From Ignavibacteria bacterium GWC2_36_12 (GTDB lineage Bacteria; Bacteroidota; Ignavibacteria; Ignavibacteriales; Ignavibacteriaceae): a stretch of DNA of 44,193 bases. The first letter of the stretch is position 1, and each line of letters opens with the position of its first letter. Both the position numbers and the translations under genes were made by a program. This document shows positions 8,229 through 34,750 of this stretch, piece by piece. The notes below the pieces were generated by a model. The model made no database searches. It saw nothing but the letters and a program-made list of their open reading frames with translations, and was not told the DNA's origin. The DNA lies in the NCBI GenBank assembly GCA_001802795.1, contig MGZZ01000002.1:1-44193 (forward strand), written 5' to 3'.

Positions 8229-8999
8229 ATGAAAGTAGTAATTCTTGCCGGCGGGTTGGGGACGCGCCTGAGTGAAGAAACTTCAATTAAGCCGAAACCG
8301 ATGGTCGAAATAGGTGGTAAGCCAATACTCTGGCATATAATGAAAATATATTCTTACTATGGATTCAATGAGTTCATAATATGTCTTGGATATAAGGGTT
8401 ATGTTATAAAAGAATATTTTGCAAATTATTTTATACATCAATCGGATATTACTATTGACATGGAAAATAATAAGATTGAAACACACAATCATCATGCAGA
8501 ACCCTGGAAAGTAACATTAATTGATACAGGCGATAAAACATTAACCGGCGGAAGAATTCTTAGAATAAAAGAGTATGTAAAAAACGAAACTTTTATGATG
8601 ACATACGGTGATGGAGTTGCTAACGTAAATATAAAAAACTTAATTAAAAGGCATAGGGAAAAAAACAAAATTGCAACAGTTACAGCAGCTCAACCTTTTG
8701 GTAGATTCGGTTCATTGGATATAGATAAAGATAATAATGTAAGACATTTTATTGAGAAGCCTGCTGGCGATGGAGCTTGGGTAAATGCAGGCTTTTTTGT
8801 GCTTGAAACGGCTGTATTTAAATATATTGAACATGATTTAATATCTTTCGAAAGAGAACCTCTTGAGAAGGTCGCAAAAGAAAATCAATTGGCAGCCTTT
8901 CATCATAAAGGATTCTGGATGCCGATGGATAAGCTTTCCGATAAGGTAGAACTCGAAAAATTATGGGATAGTGGTAAAGCACCATGGAAAATTTGGTAG
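8229..8999 (+). CDS. rfbF: Glucose-1-phosphate cytidylyltransferase
   Basis: A 256-residue sugar nucleotidyltransferase that makes CDP-glucose from CTP and glucose-1-phosphate, the entry step of CDP-3,6-dideoxyhexose synthesis. The N-terminus LAGGLGTRLSEETSIKPKPM carries the GxGTRL nucleotide loop and the KPKPM motif; MTYGDGVAN is the metal-binding region, and GFFVLE follows. The length is normal for RfbF/DdhA. It is the first intact gene of the cluster, 32 nt from rfbG. Confidence 0.95.
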   Translation: MKVVILAGGLGTRLSEETSIKPKPMVEIGGKPILWHIMKIYSYYGFNEFIICLGYKGYVIKEYFANYFIHQSDITIDMENNKIETHNHHAEPWKVTLIDTGDKTLTGGRILRIKEYVKNETFMMTYGDGVANVNIKNLIKRHREKNKIATVTAAQPFGRFGSLDIDKDNNVRHFIEKPAGDGAWVNAGFFVLETAVFKYIEHDLISFEREPLEKVAKENQLAAFHHKGFWMPMDKLSDKVELEKLWDSGKAPWKIW

Positions 9000-9031: not shown

Positions 9032-10132
9032 ATGAAAAATCTTTTTGGTGGTGTTTATAAAAATAAAAAAGTTGTAATTACGGGTGACACGGGCTTTAAG
9101 GGTTCGTGGCTTGCAATCTGGCTCAAAGAATTAGGCGCTGATGTTTATGGATACGCACTACCTCCAAAGAGGGAAAAAGATAATTTTGTTACGACCAGAT
9201 TAAATGAAATTATTCATCATGAAGATGGTGATATAAGAGATAAAAAACATTTATTGGATTTTTTTAAAACAATTAAACCTGAAATTGCTTTTCATTTAGC
9301 AGCACAACCACTTGTAATAGATTCCTATAATGACCCGCATTATACATTTGAAACAAACTTGATGGGGACGGTTAATTTTTTTGAAGCAGTGAGGGAAACG
9401 AAATCTGTTAAAGTCGCCGTTAATATTACCAGTGATAAGTGTTATCAAAATAATGAATGGAATATGGGTTATAAGGAAACAGATGCTATGGGTGGTAAAG
9501 ATCCTTACAGTGCTTCAAAAGGGTGTTCTGAATTAATTACGCATTCGTACTTGAATTCATTTTTTCTAAAAGAAGGAAGTGCAAATGTTGCCTCAGCAAG
9601 AGCCGGAAATGTTATTGGCGGAGGGGATTGGGCTGAGAACAGAATTGTTCCGGATTTTTTTAGGGCAATAAAAAATGGAGCAACATTATTTCTTCGTTAC
9701 CCGGATGCAACAAGACCCTGGCAGCATGTTTTAGAGCCATTAGGCGGCTATTTACTTCTTGCTTCAAAATTGTTTTCTGAAGGGAAGAAATTTCAAGGCG
9801 GTTGGAATTTCGGACCAAGGGATCAAGACAATTTTTCGGTGAAAGACCTTATTGCGAATATTATTAATAAAAGTGGTACAGGGGTATATGATATTGATAA
9901 AGTAAATGAAAAAGTACAAGAAGCAGGTTTATTAAAATTAGATATTGCAAAAGCACAAAATTACCTCGGTTGGAATCCTGTCTTAGACTTTGATGAAACG
10001 GTTAAAATGACTGTTTATGGTTATACTGATGAGAATAGTCATGATAACCTTTATGAAAAAAGGGTAAAGCAAATAAATGAGTATTTGTCGATAGCTGCAA
10101 TAAAAAATATTGCTTGGGTTGAGAATGGGTGA
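9032..10132 (+). CDS. rfbG: CDP-glucose 4,6-dehydratase
   Basis: A 366-residue extended SDR enzyme converting CDP-glucose to CDP-4-keto-6-deoxyglucose. The NAD-binding loop is GDTGFKGSWL (residues 18-27), TSDKCYQN follows at 133-140, and the catalytic YSASK has Y159 and K163. The length and the GFKGSWL variant of the Rossmann motif are specific for RfbG. It sits between rfbF and rfbH as in other dideoxyhexose clusters. Confidence 0.95.
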   Translation: MKNLFGGVYKNKKVVITGDTGFKGSWLAIWLKELGADVYGYALPPKREKDNFVTTRLNEIIHHEDGDIRDKKHLLDFFKTIKPEIAFHLAAQPLVIDSYNDPHYTFETNLMGTVNFFEAVRETKSVKVAVNITSDKCYQNNEWNMGYKETDAMGGKDPYSASKGCSELITHSYLNSFFLKEGSANVASARAGNVIGGGDWAENRIVPDFFRAIKNGATLFLRYPDATRPWQHVLEPLGGYLLLASKLFSEGKKFQGGWNFGPRDQDNFSVKDLIANIINKSGTGVYDIDKVNEKVQEAGLLKLDIAKAQNYLGWNPVLDFDETVKMTVYGYTDENSHDNLYEKRVKQINEYLSIAAIKNIAWVENG

Positions 10133-10180: not shown

Positions 10181-11491
10181 ATGAATCATAAAGAAATAAG
10201 AAAACAAATATTAGGATTAACAACCCAATATTACACTGAAAGATTTGCAAACGAAAAATTTGAAAAAGGGAAAACACGGGTAAACTACGCCGGTAGAGTT
10301 TTTGACGAAAAGGAGTTAGTTAACTTAGTTGATGCAGCACTCGATTTTTGGTTAACAGAAGGGAGATACTCTGAAGCATTCGCCGAAAAAATATCAGAGC
10401 TTTTAGGCATCTCAAATGTTATACTTGTTAATTCCGGATCATCAGCTAACCTTGCAGCGTTTTCTGCCTTAACATCAGAAAAACTGGGGGATAAAAGATT
10501 AAAACCCGGAGATGAAGTAATTTCAGCGGCAGCTAGCTTTCCTTCAACGGTTACACCAATTATTCAGAATAATATGATTCCCGTTTTTGTTGATGTTGAT
10601 ATTCCAACATACAACATCGACATTAATATGATGGAAAAAGCTATTTCAGAAAAAACACGCTGCATTTTTTTAGCTCATACACTCGGCAATCCTTTTGATA
10701 TAAATGCTGTAATGAAATTAGCTAAAGAATATAATCTTTGGGTAATTGAGGATAACTGCGATGCTTTTGGAAGTAAATATAGGGGGAAATATACCGGTAC
10801 ATTTGGACATATTTCAACAATAAGCTTTTATCCTGCGCATCATATTACGACCGGGGAAGGTGGGGCTGTTTTAACTAATGACGAACAGCTTGCTAAAATT
10901 ATTAAGTCATTTAGAGACTGGGGGCGTGATTGCTATTGTGCCGGAGGAGAAAACAATACATGCGGAAAAAGATTTTCTCAACAATTCGGAACTCTTCCTT
11001 TTGGATATGATCACAAATATGTCTATTCGGAAATTGGTTACAATTTAAAGATGACTGACATGCAAGCCGCTATAGGTGCCGCACAAATTGATAAGCTGCC
11101 GATGTTTTGTAAAAAGAGAAAAGAAAACTTTAACAGATACAATCAGATTTTTGAAAAGTATTCTGATTTTTTAATTCTTCCGGAAGCCACAGAACATTCG
11201 GATCCAGCTTGGTTTAGTTATATAGTTTCGGTAAAAGAAGATGCACCTTTTAAAAGAGACCAAATTGCTAAATACTTGAACGATAACTTAATCGAAACAA
11301 GAAATTTATTTGGAGGAAACATAGTAAGACAACCGGCGTTTATTGGAAAGGACTTCAGAATAGCTGAGCATCTGAACAATTCCGATTACATTATGAATAA
11401 TACTTTTTTCCTTGGGACATATCCCGGGATTACTAGAGAGAAATTGGATTATTTTGAAAGCACACTTGATAATTTCATACGTAAATACTAA
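10181..11491 (+). CDS. rfbH: CDP-4-keto-6-deoxyglucose 3-dehydrase (E1)
   Basis: A 436-residue PMP- and [2Fe-2S]-dependent dehydrase that removes the C-3 hydroxyl. The usual PLP lysine is replaced by histidine in SFYPAHHITTGEGG (H220, H221), the hallmark of E1. Cysteines C193, C251, C253 and C261 reproduce the C-X57-C-X-C-X7-C iron-sulfur motif exactly. All key residues are present, so it should be active if it receives electrons from an E3-type reductase, presumably the next gene. Confidence 0.96.
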   Translation: MNHKEIRKQILGLTTQYYTERFANEKFEKGKTRVNYAGRVFDEKELVNLVDAALDFWLTEGRYSEAFAEKISELLGISNVILVNSGSSANLAAFSALTSEKLGDKRLKPGDEVISAAASFPSTVTPIIQNNMIPVFVDVDIPTYNIDINMMEKAISEKTRCIFLAHTLGNPFDINAVMKLAKEYNLWVIEDNCDAFGSKYRGKYTGTFGHISTISFYPAHHITTGEGGAVLTNDEQLAKIIKSFRDWGRDCYCAGGENNTCGKRFSQQFGTLPFGYDHKYVYSEIGYNLKMTDMQAAIGAAQIDKLPMFCKKRKENFNRYNQIFEKYSDFLILPEATEHSDPAWFSYIVSVKEDAPFKRDQIAKYLNDNLIETRNLFGGNIVRQPAFIGKDFRIAEHLNNSDYIMNNTFFLGTYPGITREKLDYFESTLDNFIRKY

Positions 11492-11499
11492 ACAATTCT

Positions 11500-12186
11500 T
11501 TGGCTATCGTAAAAAAATATAAAGCGAAAGTAGAAGAAATTAAAAATCCTTTCCCTGATATTTATACTGTTACTTTTTCTTCAGATAAAAGATTTCAATT
11601 TTTGCCGGGACAATTTTTACACTTAGCCTTAGACGAATATGACGGCATTGGTCAATGGCCTGAATCAAGATGCTTCTCAATGCAGAGTAGTCCAATTGAA
11701 CCGCAAATAACCATCACATTCTCGATAAAAGGTAGATTTACAAAACGGATAGCTGATAAATTGTACGAAGGAAAAGAAGTCTGGCTTAAGCTGCCTTACG
11801 GCGACTTATTTTCTCAAGCTCATTCATTAAATAATTGTGTTTTTATTGCAGGAGGAACCGGAATTACTCCCTACCTGTCCCTTTTTACTGATGGATCATT
11901 TGCAAAATATGTTAAGCCGGTGTTGTATTTCGGAGCCAGGTCACAACAATATAATATTTACAATAAAGAATTAGAAAAAACTAAAATAATAAACTACGGT
12001 ATCTCAATTAAAACATTTTATGAAAATATTGATGGTTTTCTTAAAATTGAAGAAATTTTTAATGATTACGGTAATTTAGCTACTTATTTTATTTCTGGTC
12101 CTCCATTGATGATAAAATCATTTAAGAATTTTTTATTGTCAAAGGAATTAGAAGAAAAAAAAATCAGAACGGATGAGTGGGAATAA
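11500..12186 (+). CDS. FAD/NAD(P)H reductase, E3-like, lacking the ferredoxin domain
   Basis: A 228-residue ferredoxin-reductase-fold protein. SRCFSMQSSP (R57, S60) is the flavin-binding RxxS region and IAGGTGITP (from residue 116) binds the nicotinamide cofactor. Its position directly after rfbH points to the CDP-6-deoxy-delta-3,4-glucoseen reductase role. Known E3 proteins (AscD/DdhD) are about 330 residues with an N-terminal plant-type [2Fe-2S] domain that is absent here; no CxxxxCxxC cluster is present. The start is TTG at 11500, 8 nt after rfbH; no ATG start fits. Confidence 0.8.
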   Translation: MAIVKKYKAKVEEIKNPFPDIYTVTFSSDKRFQFLPGQFLHLALDEYDGIGQWPESRCFSMQSSPIEPQITITFSIKGRFTKRIADKLYEGKEVWLKLPYGDLFSQAHSLNNCVFIAGGTGITPYLSLFTDGSFAKYVKPVLYFGARSQQYNIYNKELEKTKIINYGISIKTFYENIDGFLKIEEIFNDYGNLATYFISGPPLMIKSFKNFLLSKELEEKKIRTDEWE

Positions 12187-12224: not shown

Positions 12225-13139
12225 ATGAAAACAATATTGCTGACAGGAGCTACCGGGTTTATAGGATCAAATTTATTAGAGACAATACTTTCTGAAAATT
12301 ATAATGTTGTAGGGCTTAAGAGATCTACCTCAGATATTTGGCGAATAAAAGAATTTTTAAGTGATAGCAGATTAAAACTAATTGATATTGATAAAGTTCC
12401 ATTAGATAATATATTTACCAAAGAACATATCGATATACTTATCCATTCTGCATGGAGTGGTGTAAAAGCTGAAGATAGAAATTCCTTAATATTACAATTA
12501 GATAATTTTGATTTTGCAGTAAGATTATACCACCTGGCAATTAATGCCGGCGTTAATAAAATAATTTCACTTGGTTCACGAGCAGAATACGGTGATTATG
12601 AAGGAAGAGTTGATGAGAACTATCCATGCAATCCCACAGATGCTTACGGTATAGCAAAAATGTTTACAAGCAGATTATTACAAACATTAGCTGAGCAATC
12701 GAATACTAAATGGTTCTGGATCAGACTTTTTTCTTTATTTGGGCCGAAAGAAGATGGTAAATGGCTTTTACCGTTTGCAATAAATAAGATGCTAGACAAT
12801 GAAGCAATCAATTTGACAGGATGTGAACAAAGATATGATTATTTATTTGTTAAAGATTTTTGCAAAGGCATTATTTTGTTGATGAATAGTGAAATTAGCG
12901 GGATTTATAATTTATCTTCAAATAATTCTATGCAGCTTAAAGAAATTTTGTTCCTTATTAAAGATATTCTTAAGTCTAAATCAAAACTTAATTTTGGCGC
13001 GCTCGAATACAGAAAAAATCAGGTAATACACATGGAGGGTGACTCAGCTAAATTTTATAATGAAACGAACTTTTCAATTTCACCCTTAATTAATAGTTTA
13101 ACTGAAACAATCAATTATTATAGGAATATTAAAGTCTAA
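12225..13139 (+). CDS. NAD(P)-dependent SDR reductase/epimerase, candidate YerF-like ketoreductase
   Basis: A 304-residue extended SDR. GATGFIG (residues 8-14) is the cofactor loop and YGIAK (Y141, K145) the catalytic pair. Its family does not fix the substrate. Lying between the dideoxy-sugar genes and a YerE-like thiamine enzyme, it is a reasonable candidate for the reductase that acts on the branched 4-keto sugar (YerF role in yersiniose synthesis), or for a 4-ketoreductase giving abequose- or paratose-like products. The gap to the thiamine-enzyme gene is only 4 nt. Confidence 0.75.
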   Translation: MKTILLTGATGFIGSNLLETILSENYNVVGLKRSTSDIWRIKEFLSDSRLKLIDIDKVPLDNIFTKEHIDILIHSAWSGVKAEDRNSLILQLDNFDFAVRLYHLAINAGVNKIISLGSRAEYGDYEGRVDENYPCNPTDAYGIAKMFTSRLLQTLAEQSNTKWFWIRLFSLFGPKEDGKWLLPFAINKMLDNEAINLTGCEQRYDYLFVKDFCKGIILLMNSEISGIYNLSSNNSMQLKEILFLIKDILKSKSKLNFGALEYRKNQVIHMEGDSAKFYNETNFSISPLINSLTETINYYRNIKV

Positions 13140-13143
13140 TTAA

Positions 13144-14874
13144 ATGAAAGTCTCCGATTATATTGCAGAGTTTTTAGAATCGCAAAGAATTACCTGTGTT
13201 TTTGAATTGGCAGGGGGAATGATAACACATTTGTTAGACTCACTACATCGTAAAGGAAAAATAAAAATTGTAAGTATGCATCATGAGCAAGGTGCTGCAT
13301 TTGCGGCAGATGCCTTTGGTCGAATTACAGGTTTACCTGGTATTGCTTTAGCAACAAGTGGACCTGGTGCAACAAATCTACTAACTGGAATTGCTAGTTG
13401 CTATTTCGATTCATCACCTGCAATATTTATAACCGGGCAAGTAAATACGCATGAGCAAAAAGGGAATAAAGATATCCGTCAGCTGGGTTTTCAAGAGACT
13501 GATATTGTTAAAATGGCTCTACCAATTACAAAAAAAACTTTTAGTGTTAAAACAAGCGAAGATGTTCCAAGAATCTTTGAGGAAGCCTTTCAAGTTGCAA
13601 TATCAGGACGGCCCGGCCCGGTTTTAATAGATTTACCAATGAACTTACAAAGAGGCGAAGTAAACATTTTCAATTTTGATAAAATCAAAAAGCATGCAAA
13701 TAATACTATTGATAATATTGCAAAAAAGGATTTAGATCAGATAATTGAAAAATTAATTCAGGCGAAGAGACCATTGATTTTAGCCGGTAGAGGTATACGT
13801 TCGGGTTTCGTTCTTGATGAATTTATAAAATTTGTTGAAAAGATTAATATACCTGTAGTTTCTTCATTACTTGCTGTCGATGTCTTACCATTTAATCACC
13901 CTTTGCGTGTTGGTTTTATTGGAAGTTATGGAAATAGATGGGCAAATATTGCATTAGGGACTTGTGACTGTTTGTTGGTATTGGGAAGCCGGTTAGATAT
14001 TAGGCAGACAGGCGCTGATGTTGATTCATTTAGTAAAGATAAAACGATAATTCATATTGATATTGAAAAAACAGAAATTAACAATAGGGTTAAAACAAAA
14101 ATTGGTATTAATACTGACCTTAATGTCTTTTTAAAGCAAATCAATAATGCAATTGCAAGGATACAATTTCCTCTAAAAAAAGAATGGTTAAATACTATTA
14201 CTGAATTAAGATCAGCATGGCCTGATATAAAAGAGTTAAATAATATTGAAGGCATTAACCCCAATGTTTTTGTTCATAAACTTTCTGAAAAAGCTAACCG
14301 AGTAAAATATTTTATTGCAGATGTTGGAAATCATCAAATGTGGGCTGCACAATCATTAGAATTATCTAAAGAACAATTATTTATTACCTCAGGCGGTATG
14401 GGAGCTATGGGTTTTGGATTGCCGGCTGCGATAGGTGCTGCAATTGCAAGTAATAACTCAAGCACTGTTGTCATAGCCGGCGATGGTGGATTTCAAGTTA
14501 ATATCCAGGAACTTCAAACTATTGTTAGTAATAAATTACCAATAAAAATTATTGTACTGAACAATAATTGCCTTGGCATGATCAGGCAGTTTCAGGATAG
14601 TTATTTTGATAGCCGTTATCAATCTACTTATTGGGGATATGGCTCACCGGATTTTGAAAAAGTTGGTAAAGCCTATGGTATTGATTCCAAAACAATATCG
14701 GGCGAAAATGAATTTGATGAAGCGCTTAAATGGTTTTTTGATGACGATGATGAAACGAAATTATTACAAGTTATGATTGATGTGCATACTAATGCGTATC
14801 CAAAATTAGCATTTGGCAAGCCAATTGCTGAAATGGAACCATTTTCTAAACCCTTAGATATAGAGGGGACGTGA
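13144..14874 (+). CDS. Thiamine-diphosphate enzyme, acetolactate-synthase-like (YerE candidate)
   Basis: A 576-residue protein with the three-domain layout of the acetohydroxyacid synthase/pyruvate oxidase family. HHEQGAAFAADA carries the catalytic Glu (E48); GDGGF (residues 446-450) with NNN about 25 residues later is the ThDP-Mg motif. The cell's branched-chain amino acid synthase would normally sit with ilvN/ilvC, absent here. In a CDP-4-keto-3,6-dideoxyglucose cluster the known parallel is YerE, which attaches a two-carbon unit from pyruvate to C-3. The function is inferred from context; the family is clear. Confidence 0.82.
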   Translation: MKVSDYIAEFLESQRITCVFELAGGMITHLLDSLHRKGKIKIVSMHHEQGAAFAADAFGRITGLPGIALATSGPGATNLLTGIASCYFDSSPAIFITGQVNTHEQKGNKDIRQLGFQETDIVKMALPITKKTFSVKTSEDVPRIFEEAFQVAISGRPGPVLIDLPMNLQRGEVNIFNFDKIKKHANNTIDNIAKKDLDQIIEKLIQAKRPLILAGRGIRSGFVLDEFIKFVEKINIPVVSSLLAVDVLPFNHPLRVGFIGSYGNRWANIALGTCDCLLVLGSRLDIRQTGADVDSFSKDKTIIHIDIEKTEINNRVKTKIGINTDLNVFLKQINNAIARIQFPLKKEWLNTITELRSAWPDIKELNNIEGINPNVFVHKLSEKANRVKYFIADVGNHQMWAAQSLELSKEQLFITSGGMGAMGFGLPAAIGAAIASNNSSTVVIAGDGGFQVNIQELQTIVSNKLPIKIIVLNNNCLGMIRQFQDSYFDSRYQSTYWGYGSPDFEKVGKAYGIDSKTISGENEFDEALKWFFDDDDETKLLQVMIDVHTNAYPKLAFGKPIAEMEPFSKPLDIEGT

Positions 14875-16931: not shown

Positions 16932-18467
16932 ATGAAGCAAGATAATACCCAACCCAATAAAACAATGAATAATATAGCCACCAGCGCATTGGCCTGGGGC
17001 TTTCCGGTATTACTAGGTTTTATTTTTACCCCGTTTATTTTGAAATATATTGGAAAGGATGCGTATGGAATACAGGTGTTAATAATATCTGTAGCCGGTT
17101 ACTTGGCATTACTTGATTTTGGATTGAATGGCGCAGGCACAAAGTACTTAGCTGAGTTTAACGCTCAAAAAGATATAAAATCAATTCAAGACCTTCTCGG
17201 TACAACATTAACTGCATATACAATACTAGGATTTATAGGCGCTTTAGTAATTTGGTTTATTTCGCCGTGGCTATGTGTAAGTGTATTTTCCGTACCTAAC
17301 CTTTTGGTTAATGAAAGTATCTCCGCTTTTAGAATAGGCGGATTAGGTTTTTTTTTAAGCATGATAACCTGGTGGTATACGGCAATTCCAACCGGGCTGC
17401 AGCGTTTTGATATTTTTAATTGGATATCTATTGCATTTGGAGTATTAAATACTGTTGGTAATTTTTTAGCTGCATATTTAGGTTATGGACTTATCGGTAT
17501 TATAATTTCAGGAATTGTTGCAAATATAATAGCGATAATATTATATGCAATTTATACACGTAAGATTTTAGTTTCTGTAAAAATTAGGTATAGCTTCAAA
17601 TGGTACATGTTCAAAAAAACTATGTCGTTTGGAATATATATGATTGTTTTTAGCTTTTTCGCTATTATTTTTGCCCAGTTAGATAAAACAATTATCGGAA
17701 TAATGTTAGGAACTACGGTTCTTACTTATTACGTAATACCGCTATCGGTTTCGTCTATTAACCAGCAGGTTAACGGTAAAATAATGCAGATTTTGTTTCC
17801 CAAAGCAAGTGAAATATATGCTCTTTATGATATACACCGGCTTAAAAGTTTATTCAAAAGAAGTTTTAACATGAGTGTTATAGTTGGGTTATTGATTTCA
17901 ATTCCTTTAATAACCTTCTCTTTCCCAATTTTAAAATTTTGGATTTCAATTGACATGGCAATGCACGCTCATTTTACTATGATTATATTGGTGGCAGCCT
18001 TCTTTTTAGCCGGTATAATACCATACAGTATTATAACCGGTATGGGTTTCCCAAAATATTATACTTATTCCTCAATTATTTCGGGCGTTTGCGGACTTAT
18101 ATTTTATCTGCTTTTAATAAAACCATTTGGCGCCGGCGGTGCTGCTGCTGCAAAACTGATCAGCATCTTAATGACGGTGTTCTTTTATATTTATATTTCC
18201 AGGAAACATCTTGACATAAAAGCAGTAGATTTGATGAAGATTGCATATCCAACAATTTCAATAGCATGTATTATCGGTATTAGTTTTTATTTCATTTCAG
18301 ACTTCATTTCTAATCTATTTTATTTATTTCTTTTCTCATCTATTGCTGATATAATCTTCATTACTTTTGTATGGATTTTGGGAATTGTAAATGAAGAAGA
18401 AAAACAAAAAATTCTGGTCTTCTTAAGGATAAAAACTGTAATTGAAAGAAATACGAAGAACAAGTGA
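16932..18467 (+). CDS. wzx: Wzx-type oligosaccharide flippase
   Basis: 511 residues with about 12-14 hydrophobic segments and the polysaccharide-transporter N-terminus (ALAWGFPVLLGFIFTPFILKYIGKDAYGI). It would flip the lipid-linked repeat unit across the inner membrane for assembly by the Wzy-like protein at 26953. The end overlaps the next gene's GTG start by 4 nt. The weakly conserved sequence leaves the exact family open, but the topology, length and context agree. Confidence 0.88.
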   Translation: MKQDNTQPNKTMNNIATSALAWGFPVLLGFIFTPFILKYIGKDAYGIQVLIISVAGYLALLDFGLNGAGTKYLAEFNAQKDIKSIQDLLGTTLTAYTILGFIGALVIWFISPWLCVSVFSVPNLLVNESISAFRIGGLGFFLSMITWWYTAIPTGLQRFDIFNWISIAFGVLNTVGNFLAAYLGYGLIGIIISGIVANIIAIILYAIYTRKILVSVKIRYSFKWYMFKKTMSFGIYMIVFSFFAIIFAQLDKTIIGIMLGTTVLTYYVIPLSVSSINQQVNGKIMQILFPKASEIYALYDIHRLKSLFKRSFNMSVIVGLLISIPLITFSFPILKFWISIDMAMHAHFTMIILVAAFFLAGIIPYSIITGMGFPKYYTYSSIISGVCGLIFYLLLIKPFGAGGAAAAKLISILMTVFFYIYISRKHLDIKAVDLMKIAYPTISIACIIGISFYFISDFISNLFYLFLFSSIADIIFITFVWILGIVNEEEKQKILVFLRIKTVIERNTKNK

Positions 18468-19012
18468 ATATAACTAAATCCAAATTAGATGGTGTCGTTT
18501 TAATTAGCCCCATTGTCTTTAATGACGAGAGGGGAAAATTTGTTAAAACATATCGAGAAGATTTATTTGTTTCATTAGGTCTTTCTGATGAATTCAAGGA
18601 AGAGTTTTTTACAATTTCTAAAAATAGAGTATTAAGAGGGCTTCACTTTCAAACGCCGCCTTTTGATCATTCGAAAATAGTTTATTGCCCTAAGGGTGAG
18701 GCGATGGATGTAGTTGTAGATTTAAGAAAGAATTCGCCTACTTATGGTGAATTTGACGTTTTTCATCTAAATAACATGTGCAATAATATTCTTTATATAC
18801 CCAAAGGGTTTGCGCATGGTTTTTATGCTATAAGCGATGAAGTAATAATGATGTATAAAGTTTCTTCAGTTCATTCTCAAGAGAATGATAGTGGTATTCT
18901 GTGGAATTCACTGCCAATACCATGGCCAGACGATAATCCTATTATTTCTCAACGGGATAAGAATCTTTTACCTTTCAATTTATTTCTAAGTCCGTTCAGC
19001 TATAAAAAATAA
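18464..19012 (+). CDS. RmlC-like sugar 3,5- or 5-epimerase
   Basis: A 182-residue cupin of the dTDP-4-dehydrorhamnose epimerase family: DERGKFVKTYRE, VLRGLHFQTPP with the catalytic His (H61), GEAMDVVVDLRK, IPKGFAHGF, and Y131 in YKVSS matching the acid residue of RmlC. No rmlA, rmlB or rmlD is present, so dTDP-rhamnose synthesis is unlikely. The known parallel in a CDP-dideoxyhexose route is AscE, the C-5 epimerase of ascarylose synthesis. GTG start inside the wzx stop; the TAA shares one base with the next ATG. Confidence 0.85.
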   Translation: MNITKSKLDGVVLISPIVFNDERGKFVKTYREDLFVSLGLSDEFKEEFFTISKNRVLRGLHFQTPPFDHSKIVYCPKGEAMDVVVDLRKNSPTYGEFDVFHLNNMCNNILYIPKGFAHGFYAISDEVIMMYKVSSVHSQENDSGILWNSLPIPWPDDNPIISQRDKNLLPFNLFLSPFSYKK

Positions 19013-19908
19013 TGAAAAAAAAATATTTAATATCAGGCGGCTCAGGTTTTATCGGGTCACACCTTGCAAAAAAATTAGTTGATTTGGGAAACGAAGTACA
19101 TATAATAATTATACCCAGCTGCAACATTGATTTACTGAAAGGTTATGAAGAAAACATAATCTTTCATGAATATGACGGTACTTTTCATAGTCTCGATAAT
19201 GCATTAGTAAATTCAAAACCCGATGTAGTCTTTCATCTTGCCTCTGTGTTCATTTCTCAGCATCAACCAATTGATATTGACAATCTTATATTGAGTAATA
19301 TTTTGTTTGGGACTCATTTGGTTGAAGCTATAGTGCAAAATGGTGTGAGGAAACTTATTAATACCGGCACATCATGGCAGCATTATAACAATTCAGAATA
19401 CGACCCAGTAAATTTATATGCTGCAACCAAGCAAGCTATGGAAGATATAATAAAATATTATTGCGAGGCAGATAAATTGTACGCAGTGCATCTTAAATTA
19501 TTTGATACATACGGACCCAATGACCCCCGACCTAAACTTTTGAATTTATTGAAGAAAGCTATTTTAACCGGTGAAGTATTGGAAATGTCAGGTGGCGAAC
19601 AACTTATTGATTTAGTTTATATTGATGATGTTGTGGAGGCATTTTATATTGCTTCAGAATTTATATTTAATACAAAATATATTAATTGCTCTTATGGTAT
19701 AAGTTCTAATTCTCCTATCAAACTGAAAAATTTAATTGAAATAATTTCGGATGTTATTGGTAGAAAAATACCCATAAAATGGGGTGGCAAACCTTACAAA
19801 ACAAGAGAAGTAATGGTGCCCTGGAATACTTTCTCGCAACTGGAAGGATGGGCTCCAAAGATTGAATTAGAAGAGGGTATAAAAAATTGTTTTCAAGAAA
19901 TTGTATGA
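19012..19908 (+). CDS. RfbJ/AscF-like CDP-4-keto-3,6-dideoxysugar reductase (SDR)
   Basis: A 298-residue SDR with GGSGFIG (residues 9-15) and YAATK (Y136, K140). The stretch NTGTSWQHYNNSEYDPVNLYAATKQ is characteristic of CDP-abequose/paratose synthases. Together with the coupled RmlC-like epimerase it forms a plausible AscE/AscF-like pair giving an L-configured 3,6-dideoxyhexose. The exact stereochemistry of reduction cannot be read from the sequence. Confidence 0.8.
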   Translation: MKKKYLISGGSGFIGSHLAKKLVDLGNEVHIIIIPSCNIDLLKGYEENIIFHEYDGTFHSLDNALVNSKPDVVFHLASVFISQHQPIDIDNLILSNILFGTHLVEAIVQNGVRKLINTGTSWQHYNNSEYDPVNLYAATKQAMEDIIKYYCEADKLYAVHLKLFDTYGPNDPRPKLLNLLKKAILTGEVLEMSGGEQLIDLVYIDDVVEAFYIASEFIFNTKYINCSYGISSNSPIKLKNLIEIISDVIGRKIPIKWGGKPYKTREVMVPWNTFSQLEGWAPKIELEEGIKNCFQEIV

Positions 19909-22178: not shown

Positions 22179-23234
22179 TTGGAAATAGCAGTTATTACCG
22201 GCTCAGCTGGTCTTATTGGAAGCGAATCCGTACAATTTTTTTCCAAAAATTTCGACCTCATTATAGGTATTGATAATGATATGAGAAAATACTTTTTCGG
22301 CGCAAATGCTTCTACTGAATGGAATAAAAATCGTTTGGAACGGGAAGTTCCTAATTACAAACATTATAACGTCGATTTGCGAAACTACCATGAGATTGAA
22401 ACATTGTTTAAAAATTATGGGAAGGATATAAAACTGGTTGTTCACACAGCAGCTCAACCCAGTCACGACTGGGCTGCCAAGGAACCAATTACAGATTTCA
22501 CGATAAATGCTGTTGGCACACTAAATATGTTAGAAATTACACGGTTATATTGCGAAAAAGCGGTCTTTATTTTTACTTCTACAAACAAGGTTTATGGTGA
22601 TACTCCTAATTATTTGCCTTTGGTAGAAAAGGAGACCCGTTGGGAAATTAATGAAAATCACATATTCTATAAAAATGGAATAAACGAATCGATGAGCATC
22701 GATAACTCGAAACATTCGTTATTCGGTGCCTCAAAAGTTGCTGCTGATATTTTGGCTCAGGAATATGGTAAATATTTTGCAATGAACGTCGGAATTTTTA
22801 GAGGTGGTTGCCTTACCGGACCCAACCATTCAGGCACACAACTTCACGGGTTTCTTTCGTACCTTATGAAATGTGCTGTTACTGGTGAACACTATTCAGT
22901 TTTTGGTTATAAAGGCAAACAAGTACGGGATAATATTCATAGCTGGGATTTAGTAAACATGTTCTGGCAATTCTTTCAAAACCCCAGACAGGGAGAGGTC
23001 TATAATGCTGGAGGAGGCCGTTTCTCAAACTGTTCCATGATTGAAGCAATTCAGCTTTGTGAAGAAATTACAGGAAAAAAAATGAACTATAGCTATATGG
23101 AAACTAATCGCATAGGGGACCACATATGGTACATCAGTGATTTATCGAAATTCAAGGAGCACTATCCCGAATGGCAGTGGAAATATAACATGAATGATAT
23201 TTTAGTACAAATTTTTCAAAATGTTAAAAAATAA
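22179..23234 (+). CDS. CDP-paratose 2-epimerase-like SDR with Phe in place of catalytic Tyr
   Basis: 351 residues. GSAGLIG (8-14), TSTNKVYGD (133-141) and [14 protein letters not shown] align with the RfbE/TyvE epimerase group, which converts CDP-paratose to CDP-tyvelose. The catalytic YxxxK box reads FGASK (F182, K186), so the tyrosine is absent. In RfbE-type epimerases this Tyr supports hydride chemistry at C-2, so the reaction or the base may differ. It begins with TTG at 22179; no upstream ATG is in frame. It shares the boundary with the next gene (1 nt apart). Confidence 0.72.
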
Positions 23235-33515: not shown

Positions 33516-33544
33516 TTTGCAATACTATTGCATAATTGCATAAG
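33516..33544 (+). promoter_or_regulatory. Three TTGCA direct repeats upstream of the DUF4143 ATPase
   Basis: TTGCA occurs at 33517, 33528 and 33536, spaced 11 and 8 bases, ending about ten bases before the ATG. Similar closely spaced TTGCAATA repeats precede related ATPase genes in my recollection of Bacteroidota genomes. They could be an autoregulatory operator. Inference from position and repetition only. Confidence 0.45.
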
Positions 33545-33550
33545 TTATGT

Positions 33551-34750
33551 ATGTATATTGAAAGAAAAATAACATCTCACTTAAACAAAGTTCTTGACAA
33601 ATTCCCTGTTGTATCGGTAACCGGTCCTCGTCAGTCAGGTAAAACAACTTTATTGAAATCTGCCTTTTCTTCGTATACATATTATAACCTGGAACGTGTT
33701 GATTACAGGGAGATGATTCAATCAGACATAGTTGGATTTCTAAAGAATGCTGGTCCACATGTAATTTTCGATGAAGCGCAGAATTTACCGGACCTTTTTA
33801 GCTATATACAGGTGATTTCGGATGAAAGAAACTCTGCGGGTCAATATATATTATCAGGTTCCCAGAGCTTTTTATTAAGCGAAAAAATATCACAATCTCT
33901 TGCAGGTCGTGTAAGTGTTAATCATCTTTTCCCCTTCGATATAACGGAATTGAACCTGCCTACCGGTCAGGCAGGCATAACAGAAAAACAAAGCCTGTAT
34001 CAGACTATAATTAAGGGCTTTTATCCGAGGATATATGATAAAAACATACAACCCGAAGATTTTTATCCCTCATATCTGCAGACCTACATAGAGAGAGATA
34101 TAAGAACATTAAAATCAATTGAAAACTTAAATACTTTTGCCAGATTTTTAGGCTTATGTGCAGGCAGGGTAGGACAGATATTAAATATTACATCGCTTGC
34201 AAATGATGCGGGAATAGCAGTAAATACAGCTAAAACCTGGCTTTCCTTATTGGAATCAAGTTTCATAATCTTTTTACTTCAACCTTACTATAAAAATTTT
34301 AATAAAAGATTAATAAAATCACCCAAAATATATTTTTATGATACCGGGGTAGTATCCTCACTTCTTAAATTAACAAATCCCGATTCGGTTAAGAACCATT
34401 TTGCGTACGGTGCACTCTTTGAAAATTTAGTGATTAGCGAAATAATTAAAAGCATCACTCACTCCGGGAAAAAACCCGCAGTCTATTATTGGCGTGAGAG
34501 CAACGGCATCGAGATTGATTGTATTGTAGAAAGAGGAGAGGGTTCATTAACTGCTATTGAGATTAAAGGGGGTGAAACTTTTAATAGTGATTTTATAAAA
34601 GACTTGAAGAAATTTCCCGGCATTTCTACCAAACAAGCTATTAAAAAAGTTTTGCTCTATACAGGCGAAAAAGCTTTTAACGTAATAGACATAAGTATTA
34701 TTCCTTTTAATAAGCTTATTGATTTGCTCAAAGAGCTCAAAACCTATTAG
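33551..34750 (+). CDS. AAA_14/DUF4143 family ATPase
   Basis: 399 residues. Walker A GPRQSGKTT (25-33), Walker B HVIFDEAQ (70-77), and the ILSGSQSF sensor strand, then the DUF4143 C-terminal half (FYDTGVVSSLL, YWRESNGIEIDCIVE, a PD-(D/E)xK-like core with D and E-x-K in IEIKGG). Its role is not established, although it is common near toxin-antitoxin loci. The tracked TTG start at 33536 lies within the TTGCA repeats, so ATG 33551 is preferred. A palindrome insert adds LPTGQAG at residues 136-142 without breaking the frame. Confidence 0.88.
   Translation: MYIERKITSHLNKVLDKFPVVSVTGPRQSGKTTLLKSAFSSYTYYNLERVDYREMIQSDIVGFLKNAGPHVIFDEAQNLPDLFSYIQVISDERNSAGQYILSGSQSFLLSEKISQSLAGRVSVNHLFPFDITELNLPTGQAGITEKQSLYQTIIKGFYPRIYDKNIQPEDFYPSYLQTYIERDIRTLKSIENLNTFARFLGLCAGRVGQILNITSLANDAGIAVNTAKTWLSLLESSFIIFLLQPYYKNFNKRLIKSPKIYFYDTGVVSSLLKLTNPDSVKNHFAYGALFENLVISEIIKSITHSGKKPAVYYWRESNGIEIDCIVERGEGSLTAIEIKGGETFNSDFIKDLKKFPGISTKQAIKKVLLYTGEKAFNVIDISIIPFNKLIDLLKELKTY
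33955..33975. repeat. Palindromic element inserted in frame in the ATPase gene
   Basis: CCTGCCT and AGGCAGG (7-bp perfect arms) surround ACCGGTC. In the reading frame it encodes part of the peptide LPTGQAG, which interrupts the otherwise conserved FDITEL..TEKQSL region of the ATPase. Related CCTGC/CCGGT/GGTAGGCA hairpins occur in non-coding DNA at 33381-33426. Confidence 0.75.

Follow-up and report, generated by a model that had tools for sequence, protein, structure and literature searches.

CDP-ascarylose synthesis in Yersinia pseudotuberculosis proceeds through the CDP-glucose route of ddhA, ddhB, ddhC, and ddhD and is finished by the cupin epimerase AscE and the SDR reductase AscF. In work that Salinger et al. 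are said to have reported in 2015, the epimerase WbcA is a C3 epimerase of the CDP-6-deoxy-D-gulose pathway, and its substrate keeps the C3 hydroxyl.

We analyzed a stretch of 44,193 nucleotides from Ignavibacteria bacterium GWC2_36_12, here called the window (contig MGZZ01000002.1, or C2, positions 1 to 44193). Like the ascarylose system, the window combines a ddhA to ddhD route with a cupin epimerase/SDR reductase pair; unlike that system, the pair stands apart from ddhC, at a distance of 7 kb, and its precursor would be shared with a YerE/YerF branch. The CDP context and the parallel with AscE/AscF, both proposed in a first-pass annotation, are supported by synteny and by the epimerase and reductase trees, and the likeness is one of gene context rather than of compared Yersinia AscE and AscF sequences. 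The collections searched yielded no Yersinia asc cluster; in them, the Gammaproteobacteria sample with RfbH comprised 10 genomes, none of which could be linked to Yersinia, and a GalF probe gave no match. We consider it probable that the pair is an AscE/AscF-like finishing module that yields a CDP-3,6-dideoxy-L-hexose and draws on a precursor pool common to it and the yersiniose module. If so, a single intermediate of a short CDP-sugar pathway would give rise to two rare surface sugars in a lineage far from Yersinia.

The gene pair and its cluster

The epimerase gene (EPI) spans 18464-19012 on the plus strand (GTG start, 182 aa), and the reductase gene (RED) spans 19012-19908 on the same strand (ATG start, 298 aa). 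The open reading frames and the sequence bear out the one-base junction described earlier: the EPI stop and the RED start share position 19012, within TAATG. The GTG start of EPI in turn overlaps the stop codon of the upstream gene, a Wzx flippase by sequence (16932-18467, plus strand; Polysacc_synt_3). EPI matches the Pfam family dTDP_sugar_isom at 178.5 bits and the NCBIfam rmlC model at 164.3 bits, above the cutoff of 155.75. RED belongs to the SDR epimerase/dehydratase superfamily, with no specific family assigned by Pfam or NCBIfam, and retains the glycine motif (GGSGFIG), the NTGT stretch, and Y136-x3-K140. By context, EPI is a predicted AscE-like CDP-sugar epimerase and RED a predicted AscF-like 4-ketoreductase coupled to it.

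On the same strand, the genes 5′ of the pair run in the order ddhA, ddhB, ddhC, ddhD-like, YerF-like, YerE-like, methyltransferase, glycosyltransferase, and Wzx, so that all four ddh genes lie in the cluster of the pair, and the first three exceed curated cutoffs. They are ddhA/rfbF, glucose-1-phosphate cytidylyltransferase (8229-8999; NCBIfam TIGR02623, 429 bits; 62% identity to Salmonella RfbF); ddhB/rfbG, CDP-glucose 4,6-dehydratase (9032-10132; TIGR02622, 458 bits); and ddhC/rfbH, the C3 dehydrase of CDP-4-keto-6-deoxyglucose (10181-11491; NF011936, 698 bits; 54% to Salmonella RfbH). The ddhD-like flavin reductase (11500-12186) yielded only an NAD_binding_1 domain. Because it lacks the 2Fe-2S (Fer2) domain, the route of electrons to DdhC is in question; FAD, NAD, and Fer2 domains are all found in its counterparts (Salmonella RfbI, L187, and L160). 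Directly 5′ of the YerE-like gene is a YerF-like reductase gene (12225-13139) whose product is 38 to 40% identical to its positional counterparts in L187 and L188 and falls outside the RED clade. The YerE-like ThDP enzyme itself (13144-14874; TPP_enzyme N, M, and C domains) is a predicted enzyme for attaching a two-carbon unit to C4.

On the 3′ side of the pair, 22179-23234 (plus strand) encodes an SDR resembling CDP-tyvelose 2-epimerase (123 to 125 bits with PDB 9rl0 and 1orr; 33% to Salmonella RfbE), and its sequence makes a third branch of the cluster possible. A 54% identical relative lies at L081:17328-18380, a locus that also has an EPI/RED pair. A gene for an AAA/DUF4143 protein (33536-34750) follows the polysaccharide genes. 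RED had no match in the viral contigs searched with it.

Placement of the epimerase and the reductase

Relatives of EPI were gathered by searching 396 genomes in the phylum and by scanning genome contigs, and we labeled them by their neighboring ddh or rml genes. In the resulting tree of 69 sequences, many of them found by searching with an alignment of CDP-context epimerases, which is a caveat on sampling, a branch with 100/99 support parts 25 ddh-context epimerases, including window EPI, and one orphan from 30 rml-context epimerases. The orphan (L056:9630-10166) is of CDP type, and no ddh or rml gene was recognized in the stretches examined around it. Where a locus has both ddh and rml sets, as two do, the RmlC-type epimerase stands beside the rml genes. 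Leave-one-out profiles sorted 55/55 labeled sequences correctly and gave window EPI 249 bits with the CDP profile and 196 with the dTDP profile. At positions 28, 46, 48, and 69, members of the CDP clade have K, E, Y/F, and H, versus E, Q, N, and Q in RmlC, with very few exceptions; window EPI has K28, E46, F48, and H69. Pairing EPI with the genome's own rmlC was rejected (AU p=6e-5). Placing EPI basally on the RmlC side was not rejected (AU p=0.30), which makes the profiles and the signature residues important here. Membership of EPI in a CDP pathway is thereby demonstrated at the level of sequence, phylogeny, and synteny.

The catalytic residues of Salmonella RmlC are His63, Lys73, Tyr133, and Asp170 (PMC7949155). 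They correspond to His61, Lys71, Tyr131, and Asp165 of window EPI, with His, Tyr, and Asp read from the alignment, in which Lys71 is invariant. EPI thus has the fold family and the catalytic His, Asp, Tyr, and Lys of RmlC, but it falls in a separate clade, has other residues at the four signature positions, and has other gene neighbors. Its closest sequence in the PDB is 5buv (WbcA), a member of the same CDP-pathway clade, at 181 bits versus 136 for the next and with 48% identity. That the closest characterized relative of EPI is a C3 epimerase counts against our main reading.

RED falls in a clade of 16 reductases, all from ddh clusters, with support of 98/95; the sister clade contains RfbJ and RfbS, the CDP-abequose and CDP-paratose synthases (the Salmonella RfbJ, RfbS, and RfbE references were taken from plasmid records). 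Like these, RED is an SDR 4-ketoreductase, by prediction, of a CDP-3,6-dideoxyhexose cluster. Its identity is only 22% to Salmonella RfbJ and 24% to RfbS, however, and grouping RED with RfbJ and RfbS alone was rejected (AU p=0.002). The earlier description of RED as RfbJ-like therefore holds for a distant relation and fails for membership in the RfbJ/RfbS clade. At three loci (L055:10557, L074:1416, and L082:10467) EPI is followed by a different SDR, and these SDRs form their own clade with 100/100 support; the same type of epimerase may therefore serve different products.

Association with ddhC and the two branches

Apart from the window, 15 loci combine ddhC, EPI, and a RED-type reductase, mostly in the order ddhA-ddhB-ddhC-EPI-RED (L054, L060, L065, L076, L078, L079, L080, L081, L086, L102, L103, L180, L160, L161, and L194, the last with a reductase assigned by best hit outside the tree). 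EPI and RED overlap or nearly touch at these loci except at L078 and L102, where RED comes before EPI, and at L079, where another open reading frame lies between them. A search of the 396 genomes with RED alone found three others, each with ddhA-ddhB-ddhC-EPI-RED, and on a Sphingomonas plasmid the genes are compactly arranged as ddhD-A-B-C-EPI-RED-wzx. Every locus outside the window with a RED-type reductase has ddhC (16/16; 15 in the tree plus L194). One member of the RED clade, on a Sulfitobacter plasmid, has ddhABC and no epimerase seen in the stretch examined, so the pairing of EPI and RED, well established by phylogeny and synteny, is strong without being absolute.

Our main argument for the substrate comes from the YerE-like gene. 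Among the 15 ddhC/EPI/RED loci, YerE was seen only at L079 in the stretches examined; at the other 14, no gene in view outside the pair is an evident user of the product of DdhC, which argues for the 3-deoxy ketosugar as the substrate of the pair. Two points temper this. In the window, the presence of ddhC can already be explained by yersiniose synthesis, which counts against our main reading. In addition, a count over the 21 EPI loci shows no significant link between ddhC and RED when taken alone (Fisher p about 0.17), because only two of those loci are without ddhC.

The loci without ddhC (L084 and L087, with EPI at L084:9992-10525 and L087:9956-10516) have the order ddhA-ddhB-EPI, with neither ddhC nor RED in the stretch examined; the open reading frames downstream at L084 are unlike sugar genes. 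Both loci may be WbcA-like. The window pair could act before DdhC, with EPI epimerizing CDP-4-keto-6-deoxyglucose at C3 and RED reducing C4 to give CDP-6-deoxy-D-gulose or a related 6-deoxyhexose. The required intermediate is also made by the window cluster, and both the 48% identity to WbcA and the place of these two loci in the EPI clade are in keeping with such a role. We nevertheless consider it unlikely, since the relatives of EPI and RED travel with ddhC, which is found at every RED-type locus, and 14 of the 15 ddhC/EPI/RED loci show no YerE to use the product of DdhC, whereas both loci without ddhC also lack a RED-type reductase. Furthermore, WbcA has a Cys at the position of the catalytic Tyr, while window EPI has Tyr131.

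The YerE/YerF module shares its cluster and, on our reading, its precursor with EPI/RED, yet it constitutes a separate branch. The closest relatives of window YerE (61 to 63% identity) are in two genomes of the phylum (L187 and L188), in operons with the order ddhD-ddhA-ddhB-yerF-yerE-ddhC and without an EPI/RED pair; conversely, EPI/RED occurs without YerE in the stretches examined at, for example, L054, L065, L160, and L194. Synteny and sequence thus demonstrate that the two modules are separable. They occur together in the window and at L079, where EPI, RED, YerE, and a further SDR are close neighbors, which would also suit a single sugar, an L-configured C4-branched octose made by EPI, YerE, and a ketoreductase in series. 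We hold this to be quite improbable because each module is found without the other, a separate YerF-like reductase is already in place, and YerE consumes the 4-keto group, so that a C4-branched product would leave nothing for a 4-ketoreductase and two products are likelier than one. A version in which the EPI step either precedes or follows that of YerE and in which the second reductase tailors the side chain or another position would be new to CDP routes, and we rate it as very unlikely. Between the alternatives offered in the first-pass annotation, two sugars are thus favored over one L-configured branched sugar.

Returning to the AscE/AscF-like reading, DdhA, DdhB, DdhC, and DdhD would produce CDP-3,6-dideoxy-4-keto-D-glucose. 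EPI would then invert C5 to give an L-configured 4-ketosugar, with His61/Asp165 as the base, Tyr131 as the acid, and Lys71 stabilizing the enolate, and reduction of its 4-keto group by RED would give a CDP-3,6-dideoxy-L-hexose. This product would be ascarylose or, with the opposite configuration at C4, the sugar configured like colitose. YerE and YerF would meanwhile use CDP-3,6-dideoxy-4-keto-D-glucose to make a branched sugar of the yersiniose type, such that one pool would supply two sugars of a single surface polysaccharide. We infer epimerization at C5 over C3, the configuration of the product, and the operation of the two branches side by side in the cell.

The rml genes of the genome and the annotation of CDP-type epimerases

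That no dTDP-rhamnose genes accompany the pair, as stated earlier, is correct inside the window and incorrect for the genome as a whole; scans of the genome's own contigs led us to reject the idea that the organism has no rml genes. An rmlA-like match begins just beyond the right edge of the window, at C2:44227 (343.6 bits, partly masked and slightly below the RmlA cutoff of 360.65), and adjoining it is a second rmlC (C2:45045-45566), which at 217 bits outscores window EPI. Matches to rmlB (C122:40706, 449 bits) and rmlD (C178:5686, 243 bits), on two other contigs, are both above curated cutoffs. From these matches, the organism appears to encode its own dTDP-rhamnose route, and with rmlA, rmlB, rmlD, and a second rmlC in the genome, window EPI is not needed to complete it. 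The first-pass annotation had weighed rml genes elsewhere in the genome together with firm clustering of the epimerase with RmlC; rmlA, rmlB, and rmlD are indeed found elsewhere, whereas the clustering is absent from the tree, the profiles, and the AU comparison with the genome's own rmlC. EPI could be a duplicate RmlC serving dTDP-L-rhamnose synthesis, given its score above the NCBIfam rmlC cutoff, the rmlA, rmlB, and rmlD genes, and the catalytic residues in common, but this is extremely unlikely when a better rmlC adjoins rmlA, when the neighbors of EPI are wzx and the reductase rather than rml genes, and when the tree, profiles, and signature residues group it with the CDP-pathway epimerases and the AU test rejects joining it to the other rmlC of the genome.

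The database label of rhamnose epimerase is very probably wrong for EPI, judging from these comparisons. If our reading is true, many proteins annotated automatically as RmlC, for example in Sphingomonas and Qipengyuania plasmid records, belong to CDP-deoxyhexose pathways. The four alignment positions and the ddh neighborhood tell CDP-type from RmlC-type epimerases, which makes such reannotation testable. At L160:6441-7004 and L161:6438-7001, CDP-type epimerases are annotated as rfbC, dTDP-4-dehydrorhamnose 3,5-epimerase.
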